Under the pieces are notes generated by a model. That model saw only the letters and a program-made list of their open reading frames with translations, was not told the origin of the DNA and made no database searches. Made by a program: the position numbers and the translations under genes. Shown piece after piece: positions 53,799 through 64,000 of a stretch of DNA of 64,000 nt; the stretch's first letter is position 1; every line of letters begins with the position of its first letter. Origin of the DNA: Crassaminicella thermophila (GTDB taxonomy: Bacteria > Bacillota > Clostridia > Peptostreptococcales > Thermotaleaceae); contig NZ_CP042243.1 in the NCBI RefSeq assembly GCF_008152325.1, forward strand, positions 1-64,000, given 5' to 3'.

Positions 53799-55094
53799 TA
53801 TAGATCCTTTTCCAATTGAATAATAGTTTATGTTATATTCTTTCATTTTTTCTAAATCAAATATATTTCTGCCATCAATAATCATTGGAATTTTCATTTT
53901 TGTTTTAAGAATATTTAAGTCAATTGTTAAAAATTCATCCCAATCTGTACATATAATTGTACATATTGAATCTATTAAACTATCGTATAAATTATCACAA
54001 CAGTTTATATAAGGAAATATTTTTTTTATTTCATTTGTAGCCATTGGATCATAGCATTTTATAATAGCTCCTTTTTTTATTAGTTCTTTTATAATATAAA
54101 TGGAAGGAGATTCTCGAATATCATCTGTGTTGGCTTTAAAGGTAAGACCTAAGATTGATACAATTTTACCTTTTATATCCTTATATTTTTCTAGGAGTAT
54201 GTGTACAGGAAGTATTCTTTGATTTTCATTTACTTTTATAGCACTTTTTACAATTTGAAAATCACATTCATATTTTTCTCCTATTTTTATGAGTGCTTTT
54301 GTATCTTTTGGGAAACAGGATCCTCCAAATCCAATGCCGGCCTTTAGAAATTTAGGAGAGATTCTATTATCTAATCCTAAAGCGTAAGCAATGGTATCGA
54401 TATTTGCGCCTACTTTATTACAAAGATTTGCTAGTTCGTTTATAAAAGAAATTTTTGTTGCTAAAAAGGAATTAGAAGCATATTTTATTAGTTCAGCTGT
54501 CTCAGGCGTTGTAAAGATCATTTTTATTTTAAATGGTTCATATAATTTTTCAATCATTTTTTTAGCTTTTTCAGAATCAAAACCAATCACAATTCTATCT
54601 CCATTGAAAAAATCGTATATTGCTTTTCCTTCCCTTAAAAATTCAGGATTAGAAATAACATCAAAATTTTCTTTAGAAACACCCATTTTGAGAAGTAGTT
54701 TTTTTACATATTTTTGTGTACCAACTGGGACAGTGCTTTTATTCACAATGATCTTATAGCTTTGAATAAAGTTAGAAATTTGAGAAACTACTTCATTTAT
54801 TTGGCTCATATCTACATCACCATCATCCTTAGAAGGTGTTCCTACTGCAATAAAAATGATATCTGACTGTGTAATACCTTTTTTAAGATTATTGGTAAAT
54901 ATAACATTTTTATTATTTAAACATTCATTAAGCAATTCTTTAAGACCTTCTTCAAATATTGGTGGAATTCCTTTGTTTAGTTTATGAATCTTTTTTATGT
55001 TTTTTTCAACGCATATAACATGATTTCCCATTTTTGCAAAAGCTAATGATGTAATTAATCCTACATAACCAGCTCCTATGACACATATATTCAT
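53796..55094 (-). CDS. UDP-glucose/GDP-mannose dehydrogenase family protein (UDP-glucose 6-dehydrogenase)
   Basis: This enzyme oxidises UDP-glucose to UDP-glucuronate with NAD. The Rossmann motif GAGYVGLITSLAFAKMG is at the N-terminus, STVPVGT near 120-126, and the catalytic Cys260 is in GIGFGGSCFPKDTKAL; the C-terminal LGLTFKANTDDIRESPS block completes it. The 432-residue length is normal. AAGGTGATC precedes the ATG on the minus strand. It faces the spore-coat glycosyltransferase gene, so its product may feed coat or envelope glycans; that link is inference. Confidence 0.93.
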   Translation of the reverse strand: MNICVIGAGYVGLITSLAFAKMGNHVICVEKNIKKIHKLNKGIPPIFEEGLKELLNECLNNKNVIFTNNLKKGITQSDIIFIAVGTPSKDDGDVDMSQINEVVSQISNFIQSYKIIVNKSTVPVGTQKYVKKLLLKMGVSKENFDVISNPEFLREGKAIYDFFNGDRIVIGFDSEKAKKMIEKLYEPFKIKMIFTTPETAELIKYASNSFLATKISFINELANLCNKVGANIDTIAYALGLDNRISPKFLKAGIGFGGSCFPKDTKALIKIGEKYECDFQIVKSAIKVNENQRILPVHILLEKYKDIKGKIVSILGLTFKANTDDIRESPSIYIIKELIKKGAIIKCYDPMATNEIKKIFPYINCCDNLYDSLIDSICTIICTDWDEFLTIDLNILKTKMKIPMIIDGRNIFDLEKMKEYNINYYSIGKGSI

Positions 55095-55280
55095 ATGATC
55101 ACCTTCTTTTTCAATAGTTAGACTTTTTAATACATTATATGGAAAACAATTCTATCGGTGATAACTTACATTTTACGTGATGAAAAAATTTTTAAATAAT
55201 TTTACCGTTTGATTTTTCTTGAATACTTTGATAAATTAATTATTAGATACTCAAATACCCAAGAGAGAGGGGTGAGCTAT

Positions 55281-56387
55281 GTGCGTCTAGTTCCAATAGG
55301 AGTTGTAAAAGAAGGAACATATCTAGCACAAACCTTGTACAATGAAAGAGGTCAAATTTTATTGGCAAAAGGTGTAAAACTTACCAGTGGATTAGTGAAA
55401 AGAATTAGGGATCATGGATTTTATTCTATTTATATAATTGATGAATATAGTCAAGGAGAATTAGACGATATTATAAAGCCACAGATTAGGCAAAAAGCGA
55501 TTGCTACTGTTAGAGCTACATTAAATACATCTGCTGAGTTGGACAGTGATGATTTAAATACTTTTGAACGGAAAAAGCTTCAGAAGCAATCAGAACAGGA
55601 GTTAGCTAATATACAGGAGCTCGCAAAGCTAATTGTTGATGATATATTTACACAAAAAGATATTATGGTAAATCTTGTTGATATTAGAAGTGTGGATGGC
55701 TATACTTATAATCATAGTGTAAACTCTGCAATTTTATCTTTGGTATTAGGAATCGGATATGGCTTAAATAAAAATGATCTTTATGATTTGACAATGGGTG
55801 TAATGCTTCATGATATTGGGAAAATGTTTATACCAGATGAAATTTTAAATAAAAAGGGAAAATTCAAAGATGATGAATATGAAATAATGAAGGAGCATAC
55901 AACGAGGGGATTTAACTATTTAAGAGAAAATACGAATATGAGTACTAAAGTTAGAATTATTTCCTTGCAGCATCATGAGAAGGTAGATGGCAGTGGTTAT
56001 CCTTATGGCTTAAAGGATGAACAAATTTATATTTTATCTAAAGTAGCTGCTATTGCAGAAGTTTACGATGCACTTACATCAGGTAGGCCTTATAGAGATG
56101 CTATGTCACCTAATGAAGCTGTAGAGTATATAATGGGTTCTGGAGGAAGACATTTTAATATGGAGCTTGTGAAGGCTTTTGTAAAAAAAGTAAATCCATA
56201 TCCTGTAGGAACAATTGTATACTTAAGTAATAACAGTATAGCGGTTGTAGAAGAGATTAACAGTTTGTATATATTAAGACCGTTAGTTAGAGTGATAAAA
56301 CAAGATGGAAAAATTGTTGAGCCTTTTTTATGTGACTTAAAGAAGGAAAACAATATAGTAATAGAAGGAATATGTTATGAAGTATAA
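55281..56387 (+). CDS. HD-GYP domain phosphodiesterase
   Basis: HD-GYP proteins hydrolyse cyclic di-GMP. The 368-residue protein has an N-terminal stretch common in clostridial relatives (RLVPIGVVKEGTYLAQTLYNERGQILLAKG). The catalytic HD domain has MLHDIGK, LQHHEKVDGSGYP (the GYP motif) and DALTSGRPYRDA. GAGGGG spacing favours the GTG at 55281, which gives the family N-terminus; a GTG nine bases earlier is possible. It is a single gene between divergent ugd and a terminator, without a fused sensor domain. Confidence 0.92.
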   Translation: MRLVPIGVVKEGTYLAQTLYNERGQILLAKGVKLTSGLVKRIRDHGFYSIYIIDEYSQGELDDIIKPQIRQKAIATVRATLNTSAELDSDDLNTFERKKLQKQSEQELANIQELAKLIVDDIFTQKDIMVNLVDIRSVDGYTYNHSVNSAILSLVLGIGYGLNKNDLYDLTMGVMLHDIGKMFIPDEILNKKGKFKDDEYEIMKEHTTRGFNYLRENTNMSTKVRIISLQHHEKVDGSGYPYGLKDEQIYILSKVAAIAEVYDALTSGRPYRDAMSPNEAVEYIMGSGGRHFNMELVKAFVKKVNPYPVGTIVYLSNNSIAVVEEINSLYILRPLVRVIKQDGKIVEPFLCDLKKENNIVIEGICYEV

Positions 56388-56390
56388 ATA

Positions 56391-56436
56391 ATGGATAGCT
56401 AGCAACTTGATTATAAAGCTAGGCTATCCTTTTTAA
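56391..56436 (+). terminator. Terminator after the HD-GYP gene
   Basis: GGATAGCTAGC pairs imperfectly with GCTAGGCTATCC, followed by TTTTTAA. Confidence 0.75.
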
Positions 56437-56535
56437 TATAGTAAAAACAAAACTTGACTTACTAATTGATTCATGAGACGATTGAATAAGGAAAATGATT
56501 ACTTTAAATACAAATAAAGGATTATGGAGGGGAAA

Positions 56536-57459
56536 ATGGGAGGATTATTTAAAAATACAGATAAAAAAAGACGCTTGCTTGCAGATCTTTCATTGTTTTT
56601 AGTAGCGATTATTTGGGGTGGTGGATTTACTGTTGTGAAGGATACATTAGATAATATGACACCCCTTTATATGAACGGGATTCGTTTTATTTTAGCTTTT
56701 GTTGCAATGGCTATTCTATTTTGGGAAAAATTTATAAAAATAAATAAAAAAGATTTAATTTCAGGGGGGATTGTAGGGGTATTTTTGTTTGGAGGCTTTG
56801 TATCTCAAACTATAGGGCTTCAGTATACGACAGTAAGTAAATCAGCATTTTTGACAGGCACAAATGTTGTTATTGTTCCTTTTTTAGTATGGCTTATTAA
56901 TAAAAAACATCCTGATTGGTATGCAATGGCTGGAGCTTTTTTAGCTTCTGTAGGAATTGGACTGATTACATTGCAAGGAAGTTTTCACATTGGAATAGGA
57001 GATAGTCTTACCCTGCTTTGTGCATTACTTTTCGCAGCACATATAACCTCTGTTGGATATTTTGCAAAAGATATTGACCCTATTACTCTTGCTATGATAC
57101 AAATTGGAACAACAGGAATTATTAGTATTATGGGTGCATTTATTTTTGAGCCTGTACCTCAACTTAAAGGGAATATAGCAGATATATGTATTTCTATTAG
57201 TTATATGGCTTTTATAGCCACAATGGGAGCTCTTCTGATACAAAATGTAGCACAAAAACATACACTTTCTACCCATGCAGCGATAATATTATCACTAGAA
57301 TCCGTATTTGGAACTATATTTGGAGTAATACTTTTAGGGGATGTGTTAACTTTATCTATGATTATAGGTTGTTTACTTATATTTTGTGCTATTATAATTA
57401 CAGAAACTAAGCTTAGTTTTTTACTACCAAGAAAGAAAGAAGACGTAACAAACTTATAA
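56536..57459 (+). CDS. EamA family drug/metabolite transporter
   Basis: The 307-residue membrane protein has ten hydrophobic segments arranged as two EamA repeats; the first opens with ALIIWGGGFTVVKDT-like sequence (VAIIWGGGFTVVKDTLDNM) and the second ends before KLSFLLPRKKE. Members export amino acids, nucleosides or related metabolites; the substrate cannot be read. TGGAGGGG is spaced for the ATG at 56536; an ATG twelve bases upstream overlaps that site. Confidence 0.9.
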   Translation: MGGLFKNTDKKRRLLADLSLFLVAIIWGGGFTVVKDTLDNMTPLYMNGIRFILAFVAMAILFWEKFIKINKKDLISGGIVGVFLFGGFVSQTIGLQYTTVSKSAFLTGTNVVIVPFLVWLINKKHPDWYAMAGAFLASVGIGLITLQGSFHIGIGDSLTLLCALLFAAHITSVGYFAKDIDPITLAMIQIGTTGIISIMGAFIFEPVPQLKGNIADICISISYMAFIATMGALLIQNVAQKHTLSTHAAIILSLESVFGTIFGVILLGDVLTLSMIIGCLLIFCAIIITETKLSFLLPRKKEDVTNL

Positions 57460-57519
57460 GCTTCTACATATTATATTATTGGACATATTTAAATAATTAT
57501 ATAGGAGGTTATAAGTTGC

Positions 57520-58359
57520 ATGGATATTGTATGCGCAAAAGGGACAAAAGCTTTCCTTCATGATTATAAAGTTTCTGTTTTACCAAATAGTTCAATGATT
57601 CGATGTGAAGTAAACAATATGAATATATCTGTAAAGATGATATCAGACAAAGAGGTAAAGGTTTTTGGAGATTATGATATAGACATTTCTTATTTAATGA
57701 ATTCTCGTTATGCAAGTTCTAGTAAAAAGTTTTTTATGACAGAAAAAAAATCTTTTTTAGAAATTATTAATCTTGAAGAAATAGAAGAATATCCTATAGA
57801 TACAAAAAATTTGGAATTGAGATATTCTTTTGTATCAGAGCCAAAGTGCAATATCAAGACAGCAGCACAAAATGGTTTTCATGTACAAGTTTTAGGAGAG
57901 ATATTGATAGAACTTGTTATGGATGATTACAAAGATTCATCAGAATCCATAAAAGAAAGTCCAAAGCAAGAGGTTGATGCAGTAAATACTTCATTCTATA
58001 TGAAAGAAGACGATCATTTTATAAATACTAAAGGATCATCTCAAGGAAAGAAACAAAAACCAATAAGTAATGTTAAAAGGAATAAATCGAAATTTCAAAA
58101 GGCAGAAACATTAGAGCCTATTAAATCATGGTTATTTCAAATAAAAGAAAACCTTCCAGTTACTGAAATATTGAATATGGATATAGATACTCTTCAAAAT
58201 AAACAAGATACAGTAGAAGCTGTATCAGTAGATGATGTAGCAGACAAAAAAACTTTTGATGAGCAGCCGAAACAAGAAGAAAAGGAAGTTGATAAGAAAA
58301 AAATAACTAGTCATGAAGTAAAAATAAAATCAAATCTTCCAAAACAATTGTTCATATAA
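57520..58359 (+). CDS. Hypothetical protein with CotE/DUF3794-like N-terminal half and disordered tail
   Basis: I do not recognise this 279-residue protein firmly. The first 140 residues are beta-rich (VLPNSSMIRCEVNNMNISVKMI, KEVKVFGDYDIDISYLM, KKSFLEIINLEEIEEYP, FHVQVLGEILIELVMDD) in a pattern like the CotE and DUF3794 spore proteins nearby. The remainder is Lys/Glu/Gln-rich and probably disordered. AGGAGG lies 12 bases before the ATG. It is convergent with a DUF3794 gene, sharing its terminator. A spore-envelope role is a reasonable guess only. Confidence 0.6.
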   Translation: MDIVCAKGTKAFLHDYKVSVLPNSSMIRCEVNNMNISVKMISDKEVKVFGDYDIDISYLMNSRYASSSKKFFMTEKKSFLEIINLEEIEEYPIDTKNLELRYSFVSEPKCNIKTAAQNGFHVQVLGEILIELVMDDYKDSSESIKESPKQEVDAVNTSFYMKEDDHFINTKGSSQGKKQKPISNVKRNKSKFQKAETLEPIKSWLFQIKENLPVTEILNMDIDTLQNKQDTVEAVSVDDVADKKTFDEQPKQEEKEVDKKKITSHEVKIKSNLPKQLFI

Positions 58360-58391
58360 AAAAGGCCCCAAGTGAGGAGCCTTTTATTTTA
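58358..58391. terminator. Terminator between convergent spore genes
   Basis: AAAAAAGGC and GCCTTTT-type arms surround CCCAAGTGAGGA, with T-tracts on both sides. Confidence 0.65.
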
Positions 58392-58883
58392 TGATCCTGT
58401 TACAACACATTCAGTAGAGGTTTCTACGCAGATTTGTTCTGTTCTTGTTACTTTTACATCTACTCTAATAATTGATTTTTCATGAAGAGTATTGAATGTT
58501 CCATCTGTATTGAAATCTCTTTCTACATCTCTTTCACCTTCAACGAAAGCATCTTCAATCTGACATTGATCTCCTTCTAAAGCTCCAGGTACTTCTACAA
58601 AAAGTGCAAATGGAATGGTTACTGTACAGTGCACGACATCTCCACACACTCTTGTTACATTATCAAATTGTTCTTCTTCCTCTTTTGTTTTGTAGATAAT
58701 ATTCTTATTTAGCTCACCGTTGATGATTACTTTATTATCTACAACATAACAATCTGTTATTTCAACTTTTTTGATAATGTCTATAATTTCAAAAACAGGA
58801 ATGTTAAAAGGAATGTCAACGACTGATAAATATTGTGCAGAACCAGTACCAATCACCTTAGGAACCTTAATTAATTCAGCCAT
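58389..58883 (-). CDS. DUF3794 (SPOCS) domain protein, probable spore coat component
   Basis: The 164-residue protein is one DUF3794 domain, the building block of SipL, which anchors SpoIVA in C. difficile, and of other spore-coat proteins. Typical segments are ITDCYVVDNKVIINGELNKNIIYKT and VTIPFALFVEVPGALEGDQC. It lacks the LysM domain of SipL, so it is a short coat-type relative. GGAGAG precedes the ATG. It faces a second probable spore protein. Confidence 0.85.
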   Translation of the reverse strand: MAELIKVPKVIGTGSAQYLSVVDIPFNIPVFEIIDIIKKVEITDCYVVDNKVIINGELNKNIIYKTKEEEEQFDNVTRVCGDVVHCTVTIPFALFVEVPGALEGDQCQIEDAFVEGERDVERDFNTDGTFNTLHEKSIIRVDVKVTRTEQICVETSTECVVTGS

Positions 58884-59088
58884 AAGATCTCTCCTTTCAT
58901 AATGATTTTGGATCTAAGAGGGTTGGCTAAATCCCCTTGTCCTAATACATAGTATTCAGAAAGCTTTTTTTTGACACACTTTGTCTACATTTAAAAAAGT
59001 TAATGTTGTTTATATATAAATTATGATATAGTATGATAAGGATAAAGTTTCAGAAAATTAGTTTAAAGGTTACGAAGGAGGAAGGGTA

Positions 59089-60165
59089 ATGAAAAATTAT
59101 AAAATAGCAGTTATTCCAGGAGATGGAATAGGAATAGAGGTTATGCAGGAAGGAATAAAAGTACTAAATACATTATCAAGATTAAATAATAATATTAGCT
59201 TTGATTTTACTTGGTATGATTGGGGTTGTGAATATTACTTAAAATATGGAAAAATGATGGATGAAGATGGATTAGAAAAATTGAAGGAATATGATGCTAT
59301 ACTTCTTGGAGCAGTAGGGTTTCCAGGAGTTGCAGATCATATTTCCCTACGTGATTTGCTTCTTAAAATAAGACAAGGGTTTAATCAATACATAAACCTA
59401 AGACCTATTAAGCTATTAGCGAGTGAGGATTGTCCTTTAAAAAATAAAGGTGTAGAGCATATAGATATGGTATTTGTCAGGGAGAATACAGAAGGAGAAT
59501 ATGCCGGAGTAGGAGGGATTCAAAAAGAAGGAACAAAAGAGGAAGTGGCATTACAAACCAGTGTATTTACCCGCAAAACTACAGAAAAGGTTATGGATTA
59601 TGCTTTTAAATTGGCAAAAGAAAGAAACAAGTTAAATAAAGTAACTAGTGTTACAAAATCAAATGCACTAAATTATAGTATGGTTTTTTGGGATAAAGTA
59701 TTTAAAGAAAAATCAGATGAATATAAAGAAATAGAAACAGAATCTTTTCATGTGGATGCTACATCTATGTATATGTTGCAGCGTCCAGAAACCTTTGATG
59801 TAGTAGTTGCATCGAATCTTTTTGGAGATATTTTAACAGATCTTGGCGCAGCGCTTCAAGGAGGTCTTGGGTTTGCAGCTGGTGCAAATATCAATCCAGA
59901 AAAAACATATCCATCAATGTTTGAACCTGTACATGGATCAGCACCTGAAATAGCAGGAAAAGGCTTAGCAAATCCTATTGCTATGATATGGTCAGTAAAA
60001 ATGATGTTAGACTTTTTGGAGCATAAAGAATTAGGAAATAGGATAATGGATGCTATTGTTGAAGCTGTAAAAGATAGAGAAAAGTTAACACCAGACTTAG
60101 GAGGAAAAGCAACTACTAGTGAAGTTGGAGACAGAATTTGTAGTATAATAGAAAAGATGGGATAA
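59089..60165 (+). CDS. Tartrate/D-malate dehydrogenase family protein
   Basis: The 358-residue enzyme belongs to the isocitrate/isopropylmalate dehydrogenase family. KIAVIPGDGIGIEVMQEG opens it, LLKIRQGFNQYINLRPIKLL carries the substrate-binding arginines, and FDVVVASNLFGDILTDLGAALQGGLGFAAGANINP holds the metal aspartates. ENTEGEYAGVGG is more like tartrate dehydrogenase/decarboxylase and D-malate dehydrogenase than LeuB. No leucine genes are near, supporting a catabolic role. GAAGGAGG precedes the ATG. Confidence 0.88.
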   Translation: MKNYKIAVIPGDGIGIEVMQEGIKVLNTLSRLNNNISFDFTWYDWGCEYYLKYGKMMDEDGLEKLKEYDAILLGAVGFPGVADHISLRDLLLKIRQGFNQYINLRPIKLLASEDCPLKNKGVEHIDMVFVRENTEGEYAGVGGIQKEGTKEEVALQTSVFTRKTTEKVMDYAFKLAKERNKLNKVTSVTKSNALNYSMVFWDKVFKEKSDEYKEIETESFHVDATSMYMLQRPETFDVVVASNLFGDILTDLGAALQGGLGFAAGANINPEKTYPSMFEPVHGSAPEIAGKGLANPIAMIWSVKMMLDFLEHKELGNRIMDAIVEAVKDREKLTPDLGGKATTSEVGDRICSIIEKMG

Positions 60166-60181
60166 AACCTATCTTTTTTTG
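60152..60181 (+). terminator. Terminator overlapping the end of the dehydrogenase gene
   Basis: AAGATGGG and CCTATCTT flank ATAAAA, followed by TTTTTTG. Confidence 0.7.
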
Positions 60182-60192
60182 TAAATATATTA

Positions 60193-60431
60193 GATAAACG
60201 AATTTCAAAATAAATATAAAAAGAACGTTCATGCCAAGATAACTTTTGAAAAAACTAAACTTCATTACATGAAAAAATACTAAACCTTCAAAACTCACAT
60301 TCGTTCAAACAATGAAGGTTCTTAACGTATTTTTTCATGTAATTTCAGTAAGTTTTTTTACTCACAAAAGTTATCAAAGTTATTCTCTTATCTTTTTATA
60401 TTTCTTTTTGAAAATGTTGATGTTGTTTATC
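60193..60431. repeat. Long-hairpin repeat element, copy 3
   Basis: A giant imperfect hairpin of about 240 bases. Innermost arms TTACATGAAAAAATAC and GTATTTTTTCATGTAA are perfect 16-base complements. The loop contains AACCTTCA/TGAAGGTT, and pairing continues outwards (AACTTTTG/CAAAAGTT, AAATATAAAAAG/CTTTTTATATTT, GATAAAC/GTTTATC). Arm sequence resembles copies 1 and 2 (GAAAAAACTAAACTTCAT compared with GAGAAAACTAAGATTCAT), but the central loop is different. It fills the gap before hutP. Confidence 0.7.
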
Positions 60432-60446
60432 TATATATAACAAACT

Positions 60447-60520
60447 TTCAAAATAAATATAAAAAGAACGTTAATTTCAGATAAGTTTTGAAAAAAGTAA
60501 TATTTGATGAAAAATTTAAG
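60447..60520. repeat. Truncated left half of the long-hairpin element
   Basis: TTTCAAAATAAATATAAAAA and GAACGTT repeat the left arm of copy 3 exactly (first seen at 60203-60229), followed by a diverged AAGTTTTGAAAAAAGTAATA. No right arm follows; the hutP ribosome binding site comes next. It appears to be a partial tandem copy. Confidence 0.65.
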
Positions 60521-60532
60521 GAGGGTTAAAAA

Positions 60533-60955
60533 ATGAAATGGGATAGTATTGATGTGGCAAGAGCGTCTGTTGAAATAGCTATGTCTTCTTCAAGAAATGT
60601 AGAAGATAAGCTTGTAGAGGCTTTTAAAAGTAAGGGAATAAAAACAGTAGCTGTTGATATTGGAGGGAATTTAATAGCGTCTATTCCAAAGATTATTGAA
60701 AGGGCAATTGTTTCATCAAGAAGAACAGGGGTTATTAAAGAGTCTCATGTTCATGATGGTGCTGTAGCAGGAGCAGCTAGGGAAGCCATTATGCAAGTAG
60801 CGGCAAAAGCAAGCGGATTAAATGTAGGTGGAAAAATAGGAATTGCAAGATATAAAGAACATCTAAGTGTATGTATTTTTATGAGTATAGGTTTGCTTCA
60901 TTTAAATGAAGTAGTCATTGGTTTAGCACATCGATCTATACCAGATATTGAATGA
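60533..60955 (+). CDS. hutP: HutP family RNA-binding antiterminator
   Basis: HutP binds L-histidine and Mg2+ and then NAG triplets in nascent RNA, preventing termination before histidine-utilisation genes in Bacillus. The 140-residue protein carries the family block IKESHVHDGAVAGAAREAIMQ, whose histidines coordinate the metal, and a compact alpha/beta remainder. AAGGAGGG precedes the ATG. No hutH, hutU or hutI genes are in the window. Immediately downstream lie a perfect promoter and a leader rich in UAG triplets ending in a terminator, which makes the following ABC transporter its probable target. Confidence 0.88.
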   Translation: MKWDSIDVARASVEIAMSSSRNVEDKLVEAFKSKGIKTVAVDIGGNLIASIPKIIERAIVSSRRTGVIKESHVHDGAVAGAAREAIMQVAAKASGLNVGGKIGIARYKEHLSVCIFMSIGLLHLNEVVIGLAHRSIPDIE

Positions 60956-60959
60956 TCTG

Positions 60960-60988
60960 TTGACATACATAATAGACATTGTTATAAT
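60960..60988 (+). promoter_or_regulatory. Perfect sigma-A promoter downstream of hutP
   Basis: TTGACA and TATAAT with a 17-base spacer, both matching consensus exactly. Transcription would start near 60995, just before a cluster of UAG triplets. Confidence 0.85.
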
Positions 60989-60994
60989 TGATGT

Positions 60995-61187
60995 TAATTT
61001 AGTAGATGGTTTGTAGGTTTTGTAGAATAGGTTGGTAGTTTATTAAAATAAATAGTAGACATGTAGCATAGTAGGAGATATAGTTTATAAAATCCTTTTT
61101 TAAAAGGGTTTGTTTTGACATGGAAAAATACTCTCTTACAGAGAGTTTTTTTATTTTTAAAGATGTAAAATTTAGGGGGATGGTAGT
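60995..61187 (+). promoter_or_regulatory. UAG-triplet leader with terminator ahead of the ABC transporter
   Basis: The predicted leader starts with two clusters of UAG: six at 61000, 61003, 61014, 61023, 61028 and 61036, then six at 61053, 61056, 61064, 61069, 61072 and 61081, plus GAG at 61075. A weak hairpin (AAATCCTTTT/AAAAGGGTTT, 61090-61112) and a terminator (ACTCTC-TTAC-AGAGAGT with T-tract, 61131-61155) follow, then the ribosome binding site. The layout is that of a protein-controlled attenuator; HutP is the neighbour candidate and TRAP an alternative. Triplet spacing is irregular. Confidence 0.65.
61131..61155 (+). terminator. Leader terminator (attenuator) before the ABC transporter
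   Basis: ACTCTC pairs with GAGAGT around TTACA, followed by seven T and TATTTTT. It lies between the promoter and the first transporter gene. Confidence 0.75.
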
Positions 61188-62201
61188 ATGGTAGGTAAAA
61201 AAAGTTTTGGAAAAAGGGTTTTTGTATTTTTTGTAAGTTTATTTTTATTTACGAGTTTGGTAGGATGTGGAGGAAAATCTGATTCTACAGGGGTAAAAAA
61301 AGATGTAATAAAAATTGGGATTACACAAATTGTAGAACATCCTGCACTGGATGCAGCAAGAGAAGGATTTATTGATGCACTAGAATCTAAGGGATTAAAA
61401 GATGGAGAAAATATTTCTATTGATTTTCAGAATGCCCAAGGGGATATGCCAACAGCTCAAACCATTGCACAAAATTTTGTGTCAAAGAAAAAAGATATTA
61501 TATTGGCTATTGCTACACCGACAGCTCAAGCAGCTTTTAATGCTACAAAGGAAATTCCTATTATAATTACGGCTGTTACTGATCCTAAGGAAGCGGGGCT
61601 TGTTAAGTCTTGGGAAAAGACTGGAACAAATGTTACAGGAACGAGTGATATGGCGCCTATAAAGAAGCAGTTTGCATTATTGAAAAAATTAGTTCCGAAT
61701 GCAAAAAGAGTTGGAATTTTATACAATACAAGTGAAACAAATTCTGAAATACAAATTCAGAGAGCAAAAGAAATTGCACCAGAATTTGAATTAGAAATTA
61801 CAACAACAGGTGTTACAAGTGTGAATGAGGTTCCTCAAGCATTGAGTGAGTTGCTTGGCAAAATAGATGTTTTATATACGCCTACAGATAATCTTGTTGC
61901 TTCGGCTATGCCTTTGGTAGCATCAGAATGTATGAAAAAGCATATACCAATTATTGGAGCTGAAAGAGCTCATGTAGAAAATGGAGCTTTAGCTACCGAG
62001 GGAATAGATTACTACAAATTAGGATTTCAAACAGGACTTGTTGCGGTAGAAGTAATAAATGGAAAAAATCCAAAGGATATTCCTATAGCTACATTAGAAA
62101 ACACAAAATTAGTTGTAAATATGGATACTGCAAAAGGATTAAAAATTGATTTACCTAAAGATGTAAAAGAGCAAGCAGAATTGCTAGGAGGCGACAAGTA
62201 A
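61188..62201 (+). CDS. ABC transporter substrate-binding lipoprotein (TrpX-like)
   Basis: The 337-residue protein has a signal peptide ending in lipobox LVGC (Cys27), and the mature part is a periplasmic-binding-protein fold of the ABC_sub_bind family (KIGITQIVEHPALDAAREGF, ILAIATPTAQAAFNATKEIPIIITAVTDP, VLYTPTDNLVASAMPLV). Such proteins pair with a one-domain permease and an ATPase and have been proposed to bind tryptophan or other aromatic ligands. GGGGGATGG precedes the ATG. The stop overlaps the permease start. The ligand is not established; the hutP neighbour raises histidine as another option. Confidence 0.87.
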   Translation: MVGKKSFGKRVFVFFVSLFLFTSLVGCGGKSDSTGVKKDVIKIGITQIVEHPALDAAREGFIDALESKGLKDGENISIDFQNAQGDMPTAQTIAQNFVSKKKDIILAIATPTAQAAFNATKEIPIIITAVTDPKEAGLVKSWEKTGTNVTGTSDMAPIKKQFALLKKLVPNAKRVGILYNTSETNSEIQIQRAKEIAPEFELEITTTGVTSVNEVPQALSELLGKIDVLYTPTDNLVASAMPLVASECMKKHIPIIGAERAHVENGALATEGIDYYKLGFQTGLVAVEVINGKNPKDIPIATLENTKLVVNMDTAKGLKIDLPKDVKEQAELLGGDK

Positions 62202-63106
62202 TGGAATTTTGGTTAAATATTTTGGAACAAGGATTTATATTTGGTGTTATGGTTTTAGGAGTATATATTACTTATAAGATACTTGACTTTCCAGATTTAT
62301 CAGTAGATGGCAGCTTCCCATTGGGGGCTGCTGTTACTGCATCATTATTAGTTAGTAGTATAAATCCATTTATTGCAACCTTTCTTGCTGTTGTAGCAGG
62401 TGTTGTTTCAGGAGCAGTTACAGGATTTCTTCATGTAAAATTAAAAATAACAAATCTTTTGTCAGGAATATTAGTTATGATTGGTTTATATTCTATTAAC
62501 CTAAGAATTATGGGAAAAGCAAATATTCCTTTGTTTAATCAAAGGACAATTTTTAGTTATAATTTAAAACCAATCTTTATAATTTTATTTTTTGCTATCT
62601 TTATGAAATTTGCATTAGACATTTTTTTTAAAACAAAATTTGGATTTTTGATAAAAGCTACAGGAGATAATCCTCAACTTGTTACTTCTTTAGGTATTGA
62701 TATAGGAAAGACAAAAATAGTAGCTTTAATGATTTCTAATGGGTTAGTAGCTTTATCAGGATCTTTAGTAGCACAATATCAGCGATTTTCAGATGTTGGT
62801 ATGGGAACAGGAATTATTGTCATGGGGCTTGCCTCTATTATATTTGGAGAAGCTATTTTAAAAAATTTTTCATTTGTTGTTCCGACAACTATGGCACTAT
62901 TTGGATCTATTTTATATAAAATGAGTACGGCTTTTGCGTTAAAACTTGGATTTCCACCTACGGACTTAAAATTGATTACTTCTATAATTGTAATTGGAGC
63001 ATTAGCAATTCATCAAGGGAAAAATCCTTTTAAAGGAAAAAAGCTTTTTGCTGTAGGGGGTGATTCTATTGTTACGAATCCAAAATCTATCAAAAACCTT
63101 TCATAA
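62201..63106 (+). CDS. ABC transporter permease (TrpY-like)
   Basis: The 301-residue integral membrane protein has eight or so hydrophobic segments and the family blocks DFPDLSVDGSFPLGAAVTASLL, LLSGILVMIGLYSINLRIMG and ATGDNPQLVTSLGIDIGKTKIVAL (branched-chain/sugar-type permease). Its ATG shares a base with the upstream stop. The tail overlaps the ATPase gene by 38 bases and looks atypical (GGDSIVTNPKSIKNLS); one more G in the run at 63056-63060 would end it at VGG instead. Confidence 0.88.
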   Translation: MEFWLNILEQGFIFGVMVLGVYITYKILDFPDLSVDGSFPLGAAVTASLLVSSINPFIATFLAVVAGVVSGAVTGFLHVKLKITNLLSGILVMIGLYSINLRIMGKANIPLFNQRTIFSYNLKPIFIILFFAIFMKFALDIFFKTKFGFLIKATGDNPQLVTSLGIDIGKTKIVALMISNGLVALSGSLVAQYQRFSDVGMGTGIIVMGLASIIFGEAILKNFSFVVPTTMALFGSILYKMSTAFALKLGFPPTDLKLITSIIVIGALAIHQGKNPFKGKKLFAVGGDSIVTNPKSIKNLS

Positions 63107-63863
63107 GCATACAATAAATGAAAAAACTGTTTTTAATAATTTTTCAATACATGTAGAAGAAGGAGATTTTATCACAATTATTGGAAGCAACGGAGCGGGA
63201 AAATCTACTCTTTTAAATATTATATCTGGATCTATTCAAGCAGATGATGGTGTTATTTTCTTAAAGAATAAGGAAATATCGAAAGAACCAGAGTTTAAGC
63301 GTACAAGAGTTATTGGAAGAGTATTTCAAGATCCATCTATGGGAACTTCTCCGTCCATGACAATTTTAGAAAATTTATCTATGGCAATGAATAAGGGGAA
63401 GAGATTTAATTTGACTATGGGGGTTTCAAAAAAAGATATTCCTTACTTTATTGATATTTTATCTCAACTTTCTTTAGGGCTTGAAAATCAATTAAATACA
63501 AAGGTTGGGTTATTATCAGGAGGCCAGAGGCAAGCATTATCTCTTATTATGGCGACCATTTCAAACCCTCATATTCTTCTTTTAGATGAACATACAGCAG
63601 CGTTAGACCCAAAGACTTCTGAGCGAATTATTGATTTAACACAAAAAATTATTGCTAATAGAAGTATGACTACTCTTATGGTTACTCATAATTTAAATCA
63701 GGCTATAAATCTTGGAAATAGATTGATAATGATACATGGAGGAAAAATTGTACTAGATATAAAAGGAGAAGAAAAGAAAAGTTTAAATATAGAAAAGCTT
63801 CTTGCTTGTTTCGAAAAAATACAGACAAATGATTTAATTAGTGATCGTTTATTATTTTCTTAA
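63069..63863 (+). CDS. ABC transporter ATP-binding protein (TrpZ-like)
   Basis: The ATPase of the system has Walker A GSNGAGKST, the signature motif LLSGGQRQALSL, Walker B ILLLDEHTAALDP and the H-loop MVTHNL. I chose TTG at 63069 because GGGGG lies eight bases upstream and the protein then begins MLRIQNLSKTFHK as in its relatives; a GTG at 63060 is possible but overlaps that site. With 264 residues it is normal length. It closes the operon and is followed by a terminator. Confidence 0.92.
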   Translation: MLRIQNLSKTFHKHTINEKTVFNNFSIHVEEGDFITIIGSNGAGKSTLLNIISGSIQADDGVIFLKNKEISKEPEFKRTRVIGRVFQDPSMGTSPSMTILENLSMAMNKGKRFNLTMGVSKKDIPYFIDILSQLSLGLENQLNTKVGLLSGGQRQALSLIMATISNPHILLLDEHTAALDPKTSERIIDLTQKIIANRSMTTLMVTHNLNQAINLGNRLIMIHGGKIVLDIKGEEKKSLNIEKLLACFEKIQTNDLISDRLLFS

Positions 63864-63900
63864 TAAAAGAGTTAACCAATACTGGTTAACTCTTTTATTT
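63864..63900. terminator. Bidirectional terminator after the ABC operon
   Basis: AAAGAGTTAACCA pairs with TGGTTAACTCTTT around ATAC, with T-tracts on both strands; the minus-strand gene ends inside it. Confidence 0.88.
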
Positions 63901-64000
63901 GTTTTGTTCTAACCAAGCTTTTAATTTATCTGCAATAGGATTAAACGCTTGATTATTTTTTGGATCTTGATAATTTAATCCACCCTTCTTTTGCTTAGGA
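63895..64000 (-). CDS. C-terminal fragment of an unidentified protein, cut by the window end
   Basis: The minus strand reads an open frame entering from the window edge and ending at TAA inside the terminator. The visible 34 residues are polar (KQKKGGLNYQDPKNNQAFNP, then IADKLKAWLEQNK). This is too little to name a family. Its strand, clean stop and shared terminator support a real gene. Confidence 0.5.
   Translation of the reverse strand, partial: PKQKKGGLNYQDPKNNQAFNPIADKLKAWLEQNK

Follow-up and report, generated by a model that had tools for sequence, protein, structure and literature searches.

What reads the leader that lies between a gene for a HutP-like regulator and the genes of an ABC importer in Crassaminicella thermophila, to which amino acid does it answer, and does its reader turn the importer on or off? 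The locus lies in what we call the window, the whole stretch of 64,000 nucleotides that was analysed, which is the start of contig C1 in a genome of 3.08 Mb that is 99.8% complete. A first-pass annotation had HutP of this lineage control an amino-acid transporter instead of hut genes, and the anatomy that it described for the leader is borne out (Table 1). The promoter is indeed an exact TTGACA-N17-TATAAT beginning 4 bases after the end of the hutP-like reading frame (60955), and similar promoters were seen by eye in many of the relatives' leaders that we viewed. A recount likewise returned twelve UAG triplets and one GAG within 84 bases, in two groups of six UAGs and with the start-to-start spacings originally listed, and the hairpin and the terminator reported ahead of the transporter are both present. 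Three further UAGs around the Shine-Dalgarno sequence and the start codon had been missed. The leader is furthermore the densest place for UAG in the window, with 12 in 84 nt; when it is excluded, the maximum per 84 nt is 8 on the plus strand and 6 on the minus strand, and the five other orderings of T, A and G reach at most 9 per 84 nt anywhere in the window. Dinucleotide shuffles of the leader gave an expectation of 8.5 UAGs against the 15 observed, a number matched in 1 of 50 shuffles, but this null is a weak and too conservative one because it preserves the UAG-derived dinucleotides. An Rfam scan of window positions 55000-64000 at E ≤ 1 returned no T-box (RF00230) and no convincing family, with one chance-level match elsewhere. 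Just upstream of hutP (59089-60165) there is a tartrate dehydrogenase/isopropylmalate dehydrogenase-like gene (TIGR02089, 496 bits, above cut-off), and a similar gene is found in loci L007 and L009.

Table 1. Features of the regulator gene, the leader and the importer genes in the window
Feature	Position	Strand	Basis or remark
HutP-family regulator (transporter-type HutP paralog), 140 aa	60533..60955	+	PF09021 151 bits; AF2 model matches HutP 1vea_B
Sigma-70-type promoter TTGACA-N17-TATAAT of leader transcript	60960..60988	+	12/12 consensus match
UAG cluster I, six UAG triplets	61000..61038	+	UAG starts 61000, 61003, 61014, 61023, 61028, 61036
UAG cluster II, six UAG and one GAG	61053..61083	+	UAG starts 61053, 61056, 61064, 61069, 61072, 61081; GAG 61075
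Predicted antiterminator 5' strand AGUAGGAGAU	61070..61079	+	Overlaps cluster II UAGs; computed duplex with 61131-61139
Middle hairpin, inside antiterminator	61090..61111	+	Folding; similar hairpins by eye in relatives
Intrinsic terminator (61130-61146 plus T-tract); 5' arm doubles as antiterminator 3' strand	61130..61153	+	
Three UAGs across Shine-Dalgarno, start codon and SBP codons 2-3	61173..61194	+	UAG starts 61173, 61184, 61192
Substrate-binding lipoprotein (SBP) of ABC importer	61188..62201	+	PF04392; best PDB 6hni; pocket Glu259/Tyr275
Permease	62201..63106	+	PF02653
ATPase, longest frame from a GTG, overlaps permease	63060..63863	+	PF00005

The UAG leader is an authentic conserved regulatory element. 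PF09021 is present in 10 of 16 genomes of the family to which the window belongs, and in seven of these ten the same substrate-binding protein (SBP) gene directly follows hutP, all seven with UAG clusters and a terminator, and also with UAGs on the ribosome-binding site (RBS), so that the comparison of relatives keeping hutP beside the transporter, which the first-pass annotation had proposed, finds clusters and terminator conserved. In G002 and G012 a single gene stands between hutP and the transporter and the full leader stays with the transporter; all nine family genomes with an SBP close to hutP have both HutP and leader, and G002, G009 and G012 contain three SBP paralogs at 55-59% identity, none of which carries a UAG leader. 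When named genomes were searched with the HutP alignment, 77 loci were returned. Among 108 HutP loci, including 12 without an annotated hutP reading frame, the SBP directly follows hutP in 47, of which three or more are duplicates, and 39 of the 47 have seven or more UAGs within 100 nt between the genes; of the eight below this number, L004, L064, L068 and L092 have shorter clusters and L032 is almost free of UAG. The taxa concerned are Clostridium, Fonticella, Hathewaya, Tepidibacter (by way of one gene) and Haloplasma with related non-clostridial genomes, the Haloplasma-type leaders being short, with two to four UAGs, often five-base spacers and a UAG at or near the start codon. One locus, L057 (JADPRS010000008.1), is labelled Lutibacter sp. 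B2 and has clostridial genes; it is probably mislabelled.

The leader also follows the regulator gene. Among 91 SBP upstream regions selected from family and order searches (L174 and L183, at contig ends of 31 and 40 nt, were excluded), at least two UAG-N5-UAG precede the SBP in 24 of the 47 that come from genomes with HutP and in 0 of the 44 from genomes without it (a single UAG-N5-UAG occurs in one of these 44), and within the HutP-bearing genomes this holds for 23 of 29 SBPs at most 4.5 kb from hutP as against 1 of 18 elsewhere. The lone exception beyond 4.5 kb, in G198, lies ~5.5 kb from hutP and has five UAGs together with RBS UAGs, and its leader showed no visible terminator when inspected. 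Six SBPs at most 4.5 kb from hutP stay under this UAG threshold; five are without an evident leader, and the sixth, in G079 (leader L026), combines dispersed UAGs with a terminator and strong antiterminator pairing. Within the genus g13, G220 has HutP and leader, while G040 and G050 have neither a HutP match nor such a leader. The SBPs of HutP-less genomes are mostly less like the window SBP (at most 57% identity), and UAG leaders are also found at 44-50% (G198, G220, G042); since common descent underlies the presence of HutP, the similarity of the SBPs and the UAG leaders alike, these counts are not independent and Fisher p-values for them are descriptive only. For many HutP homologs (Family XIII, Anaerovorax), both this transporter and the UAG clusters are missing from the vicinity of hutP. 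Loci L085, L088, L090, L091, L098, L100, L103 and L114 (Anaerovorax, Sinanaerobacter and others) are of this kind, and their recurring neighbourhood consists of a divergent reading frame of ~970-1150 aa and a gene of 800-850 aa that is ComEC-like in L085 (PF03772). Very distant HutP-family proteins occur in L216 (2481-2885; G169; 57 bits) and L217 (G023:C15; 83 bits), where the neighbours by eye are an IclR-type regulator, a peptidase and a transporter gene, and in L028 (G198) a hutP-like gene is followed ~20 nt on by an NhaC-family antiporter gene.

The leader has the layout of a TRAP-like attenuator, in that its triplets overlap an antiterminator which competes with a terminator. In 44 of 49 leaders the strand that best complements the terminator 5' arm shares bases with a UAG, which alone says little because the region is so rich in UAG, and it is the cluster II UAGGAGA in only 18 of the 49; differing arms go with differing upstream strands, as in L026 (AAUUGGAGU with ACUCCAAUU), L006 (GGCGAGU with ACUCUCGCC) and L093 (UAGAAC with GUUCUG). 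From this set L046, L047, L048, L057, L032, L077, L070, L083 and L019 had been omitted beforehand, and L064 has no terminator. The pairing of each leader's own strands averages -10.21 kcal/mol over 35 non-redundant leaders, compared with -9.12 (sd 0.28) for permuted partners, and the own-pair mean was reached in 3 of 20000 permutations; here five poor terminator picks (L025, L056, L087, L109, L136) were dropped and near-identical leaders thinned, from 44 to 35. The permutation test says nothing about the window leader by itself, with which 19 of 34 arms from other leaders pair as well. When the terminator 3' arm of the window leader is blocked in folding calculations, the antiterminator forms with the cluster II UAGs paired, and when the UAGs are blocked, the terminator and the middle hairpin remain. 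For the full leader without protein the minimum free energies are -28.8 kcal/mol for the terminator fold and -23.2 for the antiterminator, and since the terminator is thus favoured even without protein, which weakens the argument from energies, read-through must depend on co-transcriptional kinetics.

The three UAGs near the start of the SBP gene are likewise not peculiar to the window, as UAG-N1-2-AUGG..UAG is found around the start codon in 37 of 51 HutP-linked leaders (55 less four duplicates) and in 0 of 44 HutP-less controls, the former figure being if anything low, because a non-first SBP was taken for L070, L077 and L083 and because the starts of L016, L017, L062 and L109 are doubtful. 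Since cluster II overlaps the strand complementary to the terminator 5' arm and the two covary, binding should cause termination, as with TRAP, and this overlap together with the RBS UAGs leads to the prediction that binding shuts the genes off. What the anatomy predicts is therefore termination and translational repression instead of HutP-type antitermination. Antitermination through UAGs in the terminator itself does not suit the window leader, whose terminator has no UAG and whose UAGs overlap the antiterminator strand. A UAG lies within the terminator hairpin in 17 of the 49 leaders, three of them poor picks, and with none in the window we do not take HutP-style terminator binding for the general mechanism; the leaders that do have one would suit such action there.

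From these sequence data we infer RNA binding, a ligand and a direction of regulation, and it seems rather likely that the leader is a protein-operated attenuator, an off-switch of the importer, which is read by the neighbouring HutP-fold paralog with tyrosine as the best-guess ligand. When the imported amino acid, perhaps tyrosine, is plentiful, the liganded protein would occupy the UAG clusters with an 8-nt spacing (UAG-N5) and cover the cluster II strand (AGUAGGAGAU in the window) that otherwise pairs with the terminator 5' arm, whereupon the terminator would form and transcription would end ahead of the transporter genes, and transcripts that escape would be silenced through protein on the UAGs at the RBS. 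Under scarcity of the amino acid this strand would be free, the antiterminator would form and the importer would be made. The same protein probably governs a Na+-coupled (NSS/SNF) symporter through a second UAG leader in the genome. The fullest form of this proposal, a tyrosine-sensing HutP-fold attenuator and translational repressor of an ABC importer/NSS symporter regulon in Clostridia and Haloplasma relatives, convergent with TRAP, with an 8-nt code and a sign opposite to that of HutP, may in our judgement be right or wrong with about equal chance.

The second leader lies at ~C1:424031-424099 on the minus strand and precedes the gene of a sodium:neurotransmitter symporter (PF00209; best PDB match 4us3); it is of the same design, with a promoter, ten UAGs, a hairpin and a terminator that has the same ACUCUCC arm as the window leader; against RF00230 at E ≤ 0.1 it gave no T-box match. 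Orthologs of the symporter (70-100% identity) have 15-19 UAGs upstream in 8 of 8 family genomes, each with at least one UAG-N5-UAG and four of the eight with at least two. The motif occurs in 4 of 39 more distant homologs, in three of them at the RBS, and these three carry T-boxes with the specifier UAC (Tyr), two of which are below the Rfam gathering score; the homologs counted are a selection of those found, with L267 (a duplicate) and L285 and L286 (contig ends) excluded, and here as below we read the specifiers off the Rfam alignment by eye. The symporters of L270, L271 and L289, which combine a tyrosine T-box with RBS UAGs, may possibly be under double control by tRNA and the HutP paralog. 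Across the window's genome UAGN5UAG clusters are not enriched, with 103 matches as against 198 for the reversed pattern, and only the transporter and symporter leaders stood out by eye. Of the other UAGN5UAG places two were inspected (343 kb and 1073 kb), neither of them such a leader, so that the list of the regulon is not exhaustive.

Tyrosine is our best guess for the ligand, and histidine and tryptophan would fit less well. T-boxes with a UAC specifier are found on four HutP-less SBPs, three of which share the pocket sequence GAExAHV that is usual among SBPs with a UAG leader. A Glu/Tyr pocket is found in the SBP of the window and in all aligned UAG-leader SBPs, and this is the pair reported for the tyrosine-binding CD0873 of C. 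difficile (PMC6816091); a T-box survey describes Tyr-specific NhaC and NSS transporters in Firmicutes (PMC2494555). Histidine is not favoured, as the Tyr-specifier T-boxes on homologous genes and the CD0873-like pocket point to tyrosine; control of hisXYZ is ascribed to HisR, a T-box and a leader peptide in an account whose text makes no mention of HutP (PMC9413887). The description of the importer as TrpXYZ-like holds for its set of SBP, permease and ATPase genes and fails for the SBP at the level of the TrpX equivalog NF041285, against which it scores 329.5, below the cut-off of 390. It may also be that the repressive HutP-paralog attenuator is as proposed and answers to another ligand (Phe, Trp or His) or to several aromatic amino acids, which we think unlikely. 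Phe and Trp T-boxes do occur on paralogs of both transporters, since a paralogous symporter in 4 of 8 genomes has a UGG (Trp) T-box and UUC-specifier T-boxes are found on three SBPs, one HutP-less and two from HutP-bearing genomes (L190 has a weak T-box whose specifier is unreadable). The Glu/Tyr pair is furthermore the commonest in HutP-less SBPs too and is also found in the three SBPs with UUC (Phe) T-boxes, and is therefore no proof of tyrosine, and the symporter's best PDB match 4us3 is what we take to be MhsT, presumably with a broad substrate range. Against these points stand the Tyr T-boxes, both on the four HutP-less SBPs with their largely shared pocket and on the symporter homologs that keep RBS UAGs, and the Val/Asn pocket of both SBPs with UGG T-boxes (L332, with leader L207, and L083).

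Whatever its ligand, the putative reader, a HutP-fold paralog, has to be placed relative to HutP itself. The window protein scores 151 bits against PF09021 (gathering score 25) and is the only match to this family in its genome. Its AlphaFold2 model, built from a 54-sequence alignment, has a pLDDT of 90.9 and is best matched by HutP, both in VIA-align (1vea_B, Z 18.1, rmsd 2.1 over 128 residues, 23% identity; first non-HutP row Z 8.2) and in Foldseek (E 3.4e-9). The HutP equivalog NF002838 (cut-off 155 bits) gave no match for the window protein and three relatives at E ≤ 0.01, nor for ten proteins of alignment A1 at E ≤ 1, and as a positive control the hut-linked paralog P0001 of G208 scored 184.3 bits and matched the HutP structures 1wmq and 4ok9. 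No HutP chain was returned by a PDB sequence search with the window protein and alignment A1, and an hhalign comparison of A1 with P0001 was insignificant. Sequence searches alone thus miss hut-type HutP, and the link to HutP rests on PF09021 and the fold; by these the window regulator belongs to the HutP superfamily, and it would be separate from hut-type HutP. The metal- and histidine-binding residues of B. subtilis HutP, which we take to be His73, His77 and His138, fall on Gly76, Gly80 and Glu126 in a MAFFT alignment at ~20% identity with a possible local shift. In the same alignment the glutamate at chain index 54 of hut-type HutP corresponds to Glu56, kept in 54 of 54 sequences. This may hint at a conserved contact with the RNA and a remodelled ligand site, and at so low an identity it is a hint only.

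Linkage to hut genes is absent in the window's genome, which has two members of the histidine-lyase family (PF00221), both away from the regulator gene, at C1:236652 and C1:2499827. A comparison with Bacilli by way of the Haloplasma class and phylum contained no Bacillus hut loci, and the comparator was taken from G208 instead, where a second, hut-type HutP paralog adjoins hutH- and hutU-like genes by eye. Both protein types thus coexist in G208, the transporter-type locus of which (L198) is without a UAG-N5 leader. In L218 and L220 (G023 and G034) UAG leaders are found before a TRAP-type (DctP) transporter-like gene beside hut-like genes, as judged by eye, and hut-type HutP possibly controls a transporter there.

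HutP recognises UAG-N4-UAG, a register of 7 nt. In 52 leaders (55 with three duplicates removed and the odd L032, L070, L077 and L083 retained) UAG start-to-start distances peak at 8 nt, with 148 pairs where shuffles give 15.7, and further peaks are found at 3 (89 vs 16.5), 16 (75 vs 14.2), 11 (75 vs 15.6) and 5 (57 vs 16.4), whereas the 7-nt distance is at background (16 vs 16.3 expected). The first-pass annotation had rightly cautioned that the 7-base HutP register is missing. The leader between the hut-type HutP gene and the hutH-like gene of G208 does have UAG-N4-UAG-N4-UAG just before its terminator; this N4 register was found in that one hut leader only, and downstream of the hut-type paralogs of L218 and L220 the UAGs have other spacings. 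That the regulator is HutP itself is not supported, there being no NF002838 match, no hut-gene linkage and an 8-nt register.

The canonical alternative, in which histidine-loaded HutP binds the UAGs, antiterminates and so induces a histidine importer, can draw on the HutP fold and family of the regulator, on the two histidine-lyase-family genes of the genome, on the UAG sites before the terminator of the hut-type leader in G208 and on the leaders that have a UAG within the terminator hairpin (17 of 49). We nonetheless regard it as improbable, since the protein does not match the HutP equivalog model, the window terminator is free of UAGs whereas the antiterminator strand has them, the register is 8 and not 7 nt, the UAGs on the RBS imply repression, the presumed metal-binding histidines are not aligned with histidine (in a weak alignment) and homologs of both transporters carry Tyr T-boxes. 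That another UAG-binding regulator, TRAP or some other protein, reads the leader with hutP as a mere neighbour is very improbable, for although TRAP binds (G/U)AG repeats and attenuates in this manner (PMC3913778), UAG leaders track HutP presence even when not directly adjacent, the register is 8 nt, and the search for the TRAP gene (mtrB, PF02081) that the first-pass annotation had suggested came up empty in the window's genome and in 55 of 55 HutP-bearing genomes, with completeness known for some of them and a positive B. subtilis control, so that TRAP was rejected as the binder. As TRAP is absent and the leader tracks HutP presence, a HutP-family protein is the likely reader, and the HutP-fold paralog very probably reads the UAG leader. 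The original idea that HutP controls the transporter thus survives for the protein family and not for HutP itself.

An off-switch read by a HutP-fold paralog would resemble several known systems without coinciding with any. It shares with the hut antiterminator of B. subtilis HutP the protein fold, a regulator that adjoins its target and UAGs before a terminator, but the window regulator would form a separate subfamily without an NF002838 match, its leader has an 8-nt instead of a 7-nt register and many more UAGs, these UAGs occupy both the antiterminator strand and the RBS, and the targets are transporters and not hut genes, probably with another ligand and the opposite sign. B. subtilis HutP is described as the antiterminator of the hut operon, which binds terminator RNA only with inducer (PMC12456014). 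The likeness to TRAP (mtrB) on the trp operon of B. subtilis (PMC3913778) lies in about a dozen (U/G)AG triplets, an antiterminator set against a terminator, and an amino-acid-dependent termination and translational control that are predicted for the UAG leader; the protein is however an unrelated one, the TRAP gene is absent, the amino acid is probably tyrosine, and the leader has an 8-nt register, tandem UAGUAG and two clusters. T-box riboswitches (RF00230) act as attenuators on these transporter families elsewhere in the clostridia and presumably respond to a similar amino acid, but the T-box is a tRNA-sensing RNA and the window and symporter leaders have no Rfam match. With the TrpXYZ/CD0873-type importers (PF04392), finally, the importer has in common an SBP, a permease and an ATPase and a pocket like that of the tyrosine-binding CD0873, while its SBP is below the TrpX cut-off and a HutP-linked UAG leader precedes it. 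In titles and abstract starts of the open-licence literature we found no report of this HutP-paralog UAG system, and a subscription paper on it could exist.

If the proposal is true, a widespread sister family has put the HutP scaffold to use again as a sensor of amino acids that acts on RNA, and a second protein, unrelated to TRAP, does the work of TRAP. The UAG-N5 code could help to find further targets, and clostridial genes annotated as HutP may not be histidine regulators. For these anaerobes the leaders suggest that protein-RNA control governs amino-acid uptake where relatives use T-boxes.
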